Of a stretch of 11,813 nt of DNA, positions 3,665-6,333 are shown one piece after another. The stretch comes from Calditrichota bacterium (GTDB taxonomy: Bacteria; Zhuqueibacterota; Zhuqueibacteria; Zhuqueibacterales; Geothermadaptataceae). The notes under the pieces are model-generated. The model was not told the origin of the DNA. It searched no databases and saw only the letters and a program-made list of their open reading frames with translations. How positions within the stretch are numbered: position 1 is the first letter of the stretch; each line of letters starts with the position of its first letter. The DNA is taken from the NCBI GenBank assembly GCA_008501545.1, contig QQUM01000281.1, forward strand, positions 1 through 11,813. The letters run 5' to 3'. The translations under genes and the position numbers were made by a program.

Positions 3665-4591
3665 TTAGTTAGAGTTTTGCATTAATTCATTATAAATAGA
3701 TTTTGAAATGGCCGCTATCGCATTTTCTGCTACGGCCGGTTCCGCAATGCCTTTGGTCAGCACAACCAGCACGTAAGGTTTGCGCTGTGGCGGATAGACG
3801 ATGGCACAATCGTGACTGATGGCGGTAATGGAACCGGTTTTGTTGACGACGTGCACACTGTCGGGTAAACCGGCAGGTATTTTTTTGCGGTAGAACTGTG
3901 CACCGAGAATATCGATCATTTCTTTGCAACTTTCTTCAGAAGCGGCTGTTGAAGTTGCGATGGCGCGCATAATGACGGCCATATCATATGCATCCGTGTA
4001 ATTGCTCCAGCCCTTGCGGAAGGCTTTTATGTCTTCAACACCGCGCAAAACCTGGATGTTTTCTGCGCCAAATTTCCGCATGGTTGCCGTCACATTTTTT
4101 GCATCGGCCAACGCAATGAGCAAGTTTGTCGCCAGGTTGCTGCTGCGCGTAATCATATCATAAATCAGATCCCGGATTGCGACTTGCTTTCCTGTTGAAT
4201 CGTAGAGCGCCTCACCACCATCTTCATTTATATCCAGCGAAAAAATACTGCTGTCGACGATGCTGTAGAAGCTGTTTTTGACTTCAATTTTCTCATCGAG
4301 CTGCACTTCGCCTCGTTCAGCCATCCGGAAAATTTCAATCATGACTGGAACTTTCATCGTGCTGGCTGCATGTAGCATGGATTTTTCATTATAATAAAAT
4401 TCCTGCCCCGTTTCGATGTCATGAAATGCTACCGCTATTTCAGCATTCAGGCTGTCAACAAGGTGAGAAATTTGTTTGTTCAGGAATTCACTTCTCAATG
4501 ATGGCACAGGCTTTTTCTCGCAGCTTAAGATAATGAGTAAGATAAGGATCGGGAAAAAGGGTGTTTTTAAAAAGAAGGGTGTTTTTCGCAT
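3665..4591 (-). CDS. Class A beta-lactamase-type serine hydrolase, lipoprotein
   Basis: The protein has 308 residues from the ATG at 4591. A TTG at 4600 would add three residues, but GAGAT sits just before the ATG and nothing comparable precedes the TTG. Residues 1-24 are a lipoprotein signal peptide ending in the lipobox IILSC. The mature part belongs to the penicillin-recognising Beta-lactamase2 family. It has the nucleophile motif S77-T-M-K80, an SDN-like motif S150-S-N152, and K251-T-G-S254 in the expected order and spacing. The omega-loop ExxLN that supplies the deacylating Glu166 of true class A beta-lactamases is not visible; the region reads VLRGVEDIKAF. I infer an envelope serine hydrolase acting on a beta-lactam or peptidoglycan-like substrate, with resistance activity doubtful. 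It lies 63 bases after the selenoprotein gene, probably at the end of or just beyond that operon, and 26 bases before the thioredoxin-like gene. Confidence 0.92.
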   Translation of the reverse strand: MRKTPFFLKTPFFPILILLIILSCEKKPVPSLRSEFLNKQISHLVDSLNAEIAVAFHDIETGQEFYYNEKSMLHAASTMKVPVMIEIFRMAERGEVQLDEKIEVKNSFYSIVDSSIFSLDINEDGGEALYDSTGKQVAIRDLIYDMITRSSNLATNLLIALADAKNVTATMRKFGAENIQVLRGVEDIKAFRKGWSNYTDAYDMAVIMRAIATSTAASEESCKEMIDILGAQFYRKKIPAGLPDSVHVVNKTGSITAISHDCAIVYPPQRKPYVLVVLTKGIAEPAVAENAIAAISKSIYNELMQNSN

Positions 4592-4654
4592 AGATCTCAA
4601 ATATTTTTATTTAATGTGATTTTTTTCAAAAGAGCAACGTTTTTCATTTTCTGC

Positions 4655-4873
4655 TTACTGCAACAAATCAATAATTAAACTTTCATCCGGAAAAATACCG
4701 GTTTGTTTCTTCGAATAGATTAATTGGCCACTCTTCGAGATTTCGAAGACACCGCCACCGGAGGCAATCAATTCGACTTTGATGTCATCGATGGCCTCTT
4801 CAAGCACGGCTTTCAACCTGAGAGCCCTCGGTTCATAATTTCACATCATGCAATATTCAATTGAAATGTTCAT
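4655..4873 (-). CDS. SelW-like Rdx-family selenoprotein with in-frame UGA (Sec11)
   Basis: Translation from the ATG at 4873 gives 72 residues if the TGA at 4843-4841 is read as selenocysteine. The N-terminus MNISIEYCMM-U-NYEPRAL carries the C8-x-x-U11 redox motif of the SelW/SelT/SelH (Rdx) family. After the TGA the same frame continues with the family's conserved body: VELIASGGGVFEI (33-45), then GQLIYSKKQTGIFPD (49-63), to a TAA stop. SelW homologues are thioredoxin-fold proteins about this long, with CxxC or CxxU in an N-terminal loop, thought to act in thiol redox chemistry; bacterial substrates are not known. A GG-loop hairpin lies just after the TGA (4815-4833). The ATG overlaps the TGA stop of the ABM gene (ATGA), with AAAGGA upstream, so translation is probably coupled. 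TGA ends several other genes here and interrupts none, so a general recoding of UGA is excluded. The alternative is a Cys-to-stop mutation or a sequencing error in a CxxC homologue. Confidence 0.92.
4815..4833 (-). promoter_or_regulatory. Candidate bacterial SECIS element
   Basis: On the minus strand the sequence just after the UGA folds as AACC-GAG, loop GGCT, CTC-(A)-GGTT. This is a 7-bp stem with one bulged A and an apical loop that begins with GG. A G among the first two bases of the apical loop, on a short stem inside the coding region just 3' of UGA, is the accepted pattern for SelB-binding bacterial SECIS elements. The stem starts 8 bases and the loop 15 bases after the UGA, slightly closer than in E. 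coli fdhF. Folding was done by eye. Confidence 0.7.
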
Positions 4874-5211
4874 TCCGTATTCCTTTCTTTTGTGAAAAAA
4901 TGATCGCGCTCGACTTTACACACACGCAGTGAAAAAGCATCATACCACTTTTTTTTACCCAGCGTCTGTGCTTCTTTGTGCTCTAGATCGCTTTTCCAAA
5001 GCTCGATTGCTTCCAGTGACTTCCAGTAAGAAACTGTAATGCCCATGCCCTCTGCATCGCGAGCTGATTCGATACCGAGAAAGCCACTTTGTTTTTCGGC
5101 AAGGTCAACCATTTTCTGTGCCATTTCTGTATAGCCGGCACTGTTTTCCAAGTTGAGCCTGGAAGTGAAAATTACCGCGTAGTAAGGTGGACATTGTTTG
5201 TTTTTAAACAT
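4870..5211 (-). CDS. ABM-domain protein (antibiotic biosynthesis monooxygenase-like)
   Basis: A 113-residue protein with the dimeric alpha-beta barrel pattern of the ABM superfamily: an opening strand YYAVIFTSRL (10-19), helix AGYTEMAQKMVDLAEKQ, strand GFLGIESARD (43-52), GITVSYWKS with the typical Trp (57-65), helix AIELWKSDLEHKEAQ with the family His at 78, and a closing strand FSLRVCKVERD. This subgroup is usually annotated as a YqjZ-like or HmoA-like monooxygenase. Members range from quinone-forming and haem-degrading enzymes to proteins with no known reaction, so the substrate cannot be assigned. The gene begins 3 bases after the aminopeptidase stop, with no clear ribosome-binding site of its own, which suggests translational coupling. 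Its TGA stop overlaps the ATG of the selenoprotein gene (ATGA). This tight arrangement suggests co-expression and possibly a shared role in oxidant or quinone stress; that role is inference. Confidence 0.9.
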   Translation of the reverse strand: MFKNKQCPPYYAVIFTSRLNLENSAGYTEMAQKMVDLAEKQSGFLGIESARDAEGMGITVSYWKSLEAIELWKSDLEHKEAQTLGKKKWYDAFSLRVCKVERDHFFTKERNTE

Positions 5212-5214
5212 GCG

Positions 5215-6333
5215 TTAATCGACGAGATTTTCCGGGTTGAGTGGCTGCAGGTCTTCCGGCAGAAAAAGGCCATCTTTGCGAATAAGCACATCATCAAAAT
5301 AGATTTCGCCACCACCACAGTCCGGTGTTTGACGCATCACCATGTCCCAGTGGACTTTGGAGCGGTTGCCGTTGTCAGCTTCTTCATAAGCCTGACCCGG
5401 GGTAAAATGAAAAGAGCCTGCCATTTTTTCATCAAACAGGATATCCAGCATGGGCCGCGTGACATATGGATTAAAGCCAATGGCGAATTCGCCTACGTAG
5501 CGGGCACCTTCGTCGGTGTCCAAAATTTGGTTCAGTTTTTCGGTTTTGTCCGCCGTTGCATCGATGATTTTACCATCTTTGAATTCGAGTCGAATATCAC
5601 TGAATGCAGTGCCTTCGTAGATGGTCGGTGTATTATACTGAATAACACCATTTACGCTGTTGCGAACCGGCGCTGTAAAACATTCACCATCCGGGATGTT
5701 GAATTCACCGCCGCAGGGGATGACAGCTATGTCTTTAATGCTGAATGCCAAATCTGTCCCCTTTCCGACAATTCTGACTTTATCCGTGCGCTCCATCCAG
5801 GCTTTCAACGCCTGGCTACGCTCAAACATTTTACCGTAATCGAGTGTACAGACATCGAAGTAGAAATTTTCAAAAGCTTCCGTGCTCATACCAGCCTGCT
5901 GCGCAAAAGAATAGGATGGATATCGCAGCACAACCCACTTGGTATTTCTTACACGTGTATCGAAATGCACTGGTTTGACATAATGCGACTTGTAAAGGCC
6001 CATTTGTCCCGGTGGCACATCCGACATTTCCATGACATTCTGGCCACCGCGGATGCCAATATATGCCTGCATCTCATCCATACGTGCTGTGTCCAGTTCA
6101 CCCCATTTACGTAATCCTGCCTCCCTGCCTCCTTTAACGAGTGCACGGGTAACTTCACTGTTTCTTAAAGTCACAAAAGGAATTGCACCTATTTCGTTTG
6201 CCAGGTTGACAAGTTCAACAACCAGTTGGTGCGGTGTATCGATCGCCTCAATGAGAATGCGTTCGCCTTTTTGCAGACGCGTTGAATGGTTGATGAGCAC
6301 AGAGGCCAGTTTATGGTGTCGTGGGTCTTTCAT
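5215..6333 (-). CDS. M29-family metallo-aminopeptidase (AmpS/AmpT/PepS type)
   Basis: The 372-residue protein matches the length and pattern of Peptidase_M29 (thermophilic metalloprotease family): dinuclear-metal cytosolic aminopeptidases that remove N-terminal residues from peptides. The C-terminal half holds likely metal ligands in the family order: E217 in NIPDGECFTAP, E282 in YVGEFAIGFNP, H309 in SFHFTPGQAYEE, and H328 and D330 in KVHWDMVM. The N-terminal domain (about 1-190) opens with the usual HHKLASVLINHSTRLQKGE segment. There is no signal peptide, so it should act in the cytoplasm. The ATG start at 6333 is preceded by GAGGGG at 5-base spacing, and a near-consensus promoter lies at 6383-6411. 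It is the first gene of a minus-strand operon with the ABM and selenoprotein genes, and is transcribed divergently from larB. A long open frame on the opposite strand (5089-6114) is a shadow of it. Confidence 0.95.
   Translation of the reverse strand: MKDPRHHKLASVLINHSTRLQKGERILIEAIDTPHQLVVELVNLANEIGAIPFVTLRNSEVTRALVKGGREAGLRKWGELDTARMDEMQAYIGIRGGQNVMEMSDVPPGQMGLYKSHYVKPVHFDTRVRNTKWVVLRYPSYSFAQQAGMSTEAFENFYFDVCTLDYGKMFERSQALKAWMERTDKVRIVGKGTDLAFSIKDIAVIPCGGEFNIPDGECFTAPVRNSVNGVIQYNTPTIYEGTAFSDIRLEFKDGKIIDATADKTEKLNQILDTDEGARYVGEFAIGFNPYVTRPMLDILFDEKMAGSFHFTPGQAYEEADNGNRSKVHWDMVMRQTPDCGGGEIYFDDVLIRKDGLFLPEDLQPLNPENLVD

Follow-up and report, generated by a model that had tools for sequence, protein, structure and literature searches.

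A SelW-like (Rdx family) selenoprotein gene with a conserved in-frame TGA in a Calditrichota bacterium

The locus at 4655..4873 on the minus strand of the window (the whole 11,813-nucleotide stretch of DNA analysed, corresponding to contig C34) is, in our assessment, almost certainly a functional gene for a selenoprotein that belongs to the bacterial SelW-like (Rdx) family. Members of this family have a thioredoxin-like fold and a redox role. Site-specific recoding of TGA as selenocysteine (Sec), as had been proposed in the sequence-only reading of this DNA, is supported because the TGA is present in every relative that was read, a covarying hairpin follows it, the codons in the hairpin loop are constrained, the genome has its own SelB, and its congeners encode SelA, SelB, tRNA-Sec and SelD. 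Ribosomes would start at 4873, next to the stop codon of an ABM monooxygenase-like gene; SelB, bound to the downstream hairpin acting as a bacterial SECIS element, would deliver Sec-tRNA-Sec at the UGA (4841-4843) in place of termination, and translation would continue to the TAA at 4655. The predicted product, small and thioredoxin-like, would be a selenol/thiol oxidoreductase that has Cys-x-x-Sec as its redox pair; both Sec insertion at this UGA and the redox function are inferred.

A complete Rdx-family gene across one TGA

Translation of 4655-4873 (minus strand), with TGA read as U, gives MNISIEYC8MMU11NYEPR and so on, in total 72 residues from ATG to TAA with a single TGA at 4841..4843 (minus strand, residue 11). 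This TGA occupies the second redox position of the C8-M-M-U11 motif near the N-terminus and aligns with the CxxU of all loci read, while the first residue of the pair, Cys8, is encoded by TGC at 4850..4852 (minus strand). With Cys put for Sec, the protein matches the Rdx profile PF10262 at 66.6 bits (cut-off 22.6; 2.2e-18), the match spanning residues 2-71 and profile positions 1-72 of 74. Two NCBIfam models are likewise matched by the 72-residue frame with the same substitution: SelTWH_Campy (NF041051) at 89.4 bits against a cut-off of 88, and CXXU_selWTH (TIGR02174) at 58.2 bits against 34.2. The complete Rdx-family protein described in the sequence-only reading is thereby confirmed. The start ATG (4871-4873) overlaps the TGA stop of the ABM gene (4870-4872) as ATGA, and an AAGGA at 4881..4885 (minus strand), 7 bases upstream of the ATG, is by its sequence a likely ribosome-binding site. 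A frame of 61 codons remains open past the TGA with a probability of about 0.03 by chance at the local GC content; openness is therefore weak support when taken alone, and the main evidence is the family match together with the conserved TGA.

The gene illustrates how gene callers cut selenoprotein genes short. It had been suggested that a gene caller would see only a gap here; the full gene is indeed missed, but a 53-aa product of the window that starts past the TGA and carries PF10262 (P0002) is already in the protein database. Five of the eight database relatives besides the window's own are similar pieces of 44-55 aa without the CxxU region. Three full-length database relatives (P0003, P0004 and P0005) have Trp at the Sec site, possibly because the source translated TGA as Trp, and not because a genuine C-x-x-W form exists.

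The TGA is conserved across relatives

In a sample of 99 related genomes, own genome included, Rdx matches were found in 44, giving 45 matches in total as one genome (G050) has two. All 45 were read (30 fetched loci, the window and 14 further loci), and TGA stands at the aligned site in each, so that alignment with Rdx proteins places the window's TGA on the Sec site, as had been anticipated. One match (G051) initially appeared to be without a stop since it begins past the site, with the two preceding codons read as N; the TGA is present there too. Another (G014) contains two TGAs, and its interpretation as a double-Sec protein was rejected, the second TGA being the usual C-terminal end. The second Rdx copy of G050 (L186, G050:C144:6402-6542) has TGA at the Sec site and also a TAA inside the matched stretch, and therefore appears to be damaged or misassembled.

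A scan of named genomes yielded 251 confirmed relatives, and the best 80 of these were read: all 80 have TGA at the site, with TGC or TGT as the Cys codon. The scan did not select for TGA: its search patterns match sequence downstream of the site, and Cys stood at that position in the query. The 80 loci are the closest ones, and Cys forms may occur among the other 171. Judging by record titles, the best 80 of the 251 cover Calditrichaeota, KSB1, Gemmatimonadota, Desulfuromonadales, Marinimicrobia, Rhodospirillales and Planctomycetota. The closest of them, at 67% identity, is from Calditrichaeota bacterium isolate CLD2 14; the record of this isolate (L075) contains, letter for letter, the locus of a same-genus genome (L029, from G002), which makes it very likely that the source organism of the window and CLD2 14 are congeners. 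Past the TGA, codons of the two genes differ at 16, 13 and 32 sites at positions 1, 2 and 3, respectively.

These data bear directly on two readings in which the TGA would not be a Sec codon. The codon could truly be TGC or TGT, misread in sequencing, or the frame could be dead as in an ordinary pseudogene, and the TGA of the window does rest on a single draft assembly; however, 110 other loci, drawn from separate assemblies and including a few fetched twice, carry the same TGA, as do the 14 further loci. With the TGA present in all 45 matches of the relatives sample and in all of the best 80 of 251 named loci, this reading is very unlikely, to the point of being negligible. If, instead, TGA coded for an amino acid (Trp, for instance) throughout the genome, the Trp in P0003-P0005 could stem from translation under such a code. 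Against this, three genes of the window end in TGA, and several relatives have TGA at the normal C-terminal end of this same protein with unrelated sequence beyond it, leaving reassignment with a vanishingly small probability. The stop codons were checked in 12 window frames, the SelW-like one included: the 706-aa gene, the ABM gene and sucD use TGA, and the remaining nine end in TAA or TAG, so that the earlier description of TGA as a normal stop elsewhere in the window is borne out for these three genes.

A covarying hairpin follows the TGA

A hairpin at 4808..4826 (minus strand), which we take as the bacterial SECIS element on the grounds of fold, covariation, codon constraint and published constraints, consists of seven pairs with one C.A mismatch and carries the apical loop GGU (4816-4818). 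The bacterial SECIS model, as set out in the excerpt available of its description, has a loop of 3-9 nt with G in the first two positions, a stem of 4-16 bp, a distance of 16-37 nt from the UGA and an MFE of -7.5 or lower (PMC13188914). The window's hairpin falls within all four limits: the loop GGU lies 22 nt after the UGA, the stem has the seven pairs with one mismatch, and the energy is -8.6 kcal/mol over 42 nt.

Covariation was assessed in an ungapped alignment of the 45 bases past the TGA; of 111 rows, 104 distinct ones were used, L152 having been dropped for an N and six duplicates merged. The five core pairs form in 88.8% of cells and show 116 two-sided changes as well as 16 further pair types, as against 31-49% paired, 3-34 two-sided changes and 7-13 pair types in controls where one side was slid by 1-3 bases. 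Thinning the set to 53 rows less than 75% identical left 87.5% paired and 51 two-sided changes. The best covarying pair, columns 20-32, joins two third codon positions and is formed in 95 of the 104 rows (shuffle mean 52), followed by columns 21-31 in 87 of 104 (shuffle mean 42), with the caution that these shuffles ignore relatedness; it is at pair 21-31 that the window itself has its C.A mismatch. Codon choice in the loop is also constrained. At the eighth codon past the TGA, all 59 rows with Ser use AGT and all 15 with Gly use GGT; farther downstream in these genes, AGT accounts for 28 of 347 Ser codons (8%) and GGT for 116 of 523 Gly codons. Folding energy, a weak test, did not set the window below its synonymous shuffles (0.51 of them were as low), and across the 104 rows the mean z was -0.56, with only 10 of 104 at or below 0.05. 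The short hairpin is thus distinguished by covariation and codon choice, not by energy.

Selenocysteine machinery in the genus and in the source genome

The two same-genus genomes (G001 and G002) each contain SelA, SelB, tRNA-Sec and SelD, with SelA matches of 7.5e-161 and 3.2e-163, a tRNA-Sec (anticodon TCA) roughly 2 kb away from selB, and one in-frame TGA in each SelD. In both, the tRNA-Sec comes after a gene near selB, presumably a dehydrogenase-like one. More widely, SelB exceeds the cut-off in 18 of 21 near relatives, own genome included. SelA does so in 37 of the 44 genomes with Rdx and 33 of the 55 without it (Fisher p 0.014, a value that ignores relatedness), and matches to tRNA-Sec reach 60 bits in at least 31 of the 44 Rdx genomes, with up to 38 candidates scored per genome. 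The six best SelD matches (L069-L074) are open frames of 736-778 residues without an in-frame TGA, about twice the length of SelD, and apparently represent SelD fused to another domain.

The source genome, that of an uncultured bacterium, is represented by an assembly of 4.13 Mb in 838 contigs that is 67.7% complete. Its SelB is full length (660 residues), with the GTPase, the SelB beta-barrel and two SelB winged-helix domains. It shares 61% identity with the G001 protein across 630 residues and 69% with its G002 counterpart across 537. In this 67.7% complete assembly neither SelA (best 21.4 bits) nor SelD (best 49.7 bits) was found over cut-off, and no tRNA-Sec was found, matches to RF01852 all falling below cut-off. 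The search for sel genes proposed in the sequence-only reading therefore recovered selB, while selA, selC and selD were not found; the absence of selB or selC from a complete genome, which would have counted against recoding, does not apply to an assembly at this level of completeness. Among the eight RF01852 loci below cut-off, five were run through ARAGORN and yielded other tRNAs only, and three more share a contig with one of those checked. A DNA search with the tRNA-Sec of a congener returned one 21-base match (E 0.4) in a contig with a tRNA cluster, which was also rejected. The gene that lies beside tRNA-Sec near selB in the congeners is assembled in the source genome, and the next open frame comes after it without an intervening tRNA. 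As this position is assembled but empty, the lineage may have moved or lost its tRNA-Sec. An inverted repeat, GTCATTCC...GGAATGAC, lies in the interval that separates the gene after selB from the following frame (L169:6370-6475) and may mark a small insertion where the congeners carry tRNA-Sec.

Such observations raise the scenario of a relic, in which the lineage is losing Sec decoding, with selA, selC and selD gone and selB left, so that the gene would end at the TGA or yield a 53-aa fragment from a downstream start. The three genes missing from the assembly and the empty tRNA-Sec position would fit this, as would a relative listed as 98% complete (G064): its Rdx and SelD genes both contain the TGA, yet it gave no SelA match, nor any tRNA-Sec scoring above the cut-off. 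However, the assembly is 67.7% complete and broken into 838 contigs, and single Sec genes are also missing from other incomplete relatives. Moreover, SelB is full length; the CxxU motif, the hairpin and the family match downstream are all intact; and the differences from CLD2 14 past the TGA fall mostly at third positions. We consider a relic highly improbable, and a functional selenoprotein gene remains our reading of the locus.

Place among known selenoproteins

The SelW-like bacterial selenoproteins to which the gene was originally assigned are a known family. In the excerpts available, a bacterial survey from 2006 gives 10 SelW-like genes and few or no Cys homologues for organisms that contain Sec (PMC1794560), and a study of ocean samples lists SelW-like proteins and SelD as the most widespread selenoproteins, with 427 SelW-like CxxU sequences and 56 Cys homologues (PMC2398784). 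The window gene resembles the bacterial SelW-like proteins (Rdx, PF10262; TIGR02174) in its family match, its CxxU and its UGA followed by a SECIS-type hairpin, and nothing of substance sets it apart from them besides its own gene neighbors and its Calditrichota-type genome. Sequence matches to proteins of solved structure include animal Selenoprotein W (2npb) over residues 3-63, a weak match at 4.6e-4, and animal C17orf37 (2ljk) over residues 2-70. C17orf37 has Cys instead of Sec. Eukaryotic SECIS elements sit in the 3'-UTR, according to the ocean study (PMC2398784). A limited literature search for Calditrichaeota selenoproteins or Caldithrix selenocysteine returned nothing on the subject, judging by titles and the openings of abstracts. 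Family and mechanism are thus already established, and what is new is the locus in an understudied Calditrichota-type lineage; as a new selenoprotein gene, it points to the use of selenium in this lineage.

Gene neighborhood

The SelW-like gene lies between the ABM gene (4870..5211), followed by an M29 metallopeptidase gene (5215..6333), and a beta-lactamase-fold serine hydrolase gene (3665..4600), all on the minus strand; both the peptidase and the hydrolase also neighbor the SelW-like gene in several relatives. Neighbors were counted in the 30 fetched loci of the relatives sample and in the best 80 of the 251 named loci, sets that overlap in part and include loci with short flanks. The M29 peptidase is near the SelW-like gene in 14 of the 30 and 4 of the 80, the hydrolase in 14 and 2, and the two together in 12 and 2. 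Loci bearing the peptidase come from four families and those bearing the hydrolase from three, and the congener G001 (L181) also has both. The ABM gene directly adjoins the SelW-like gene only within the genus; weaker ABM matches occur about 0.9 and 1.3 kb away from it in L115 and L118.

A tentative scenario would place the SelW-like gene in a conserved cluster with the M29 peptidase, the serine hydrolase and, within the genus, ABM, across Calditrichota and related lineages, its product serving one of these proteins as a redox partner or as a maturation factor. We regard this as possible but doubtful: the conserved neighbors are the only lead towards function, not evidence of function. If true, it would provide a concrete, testable substrate for a poorly understood protein family.

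Elsewhere in the window, the 706-residue protein encoded at 136-2256 has no Pfam match at E 0.001, yet a relative of its first 196 residues, 63% identical, occurs close to the same locus in the CLD2 14 record (L075).
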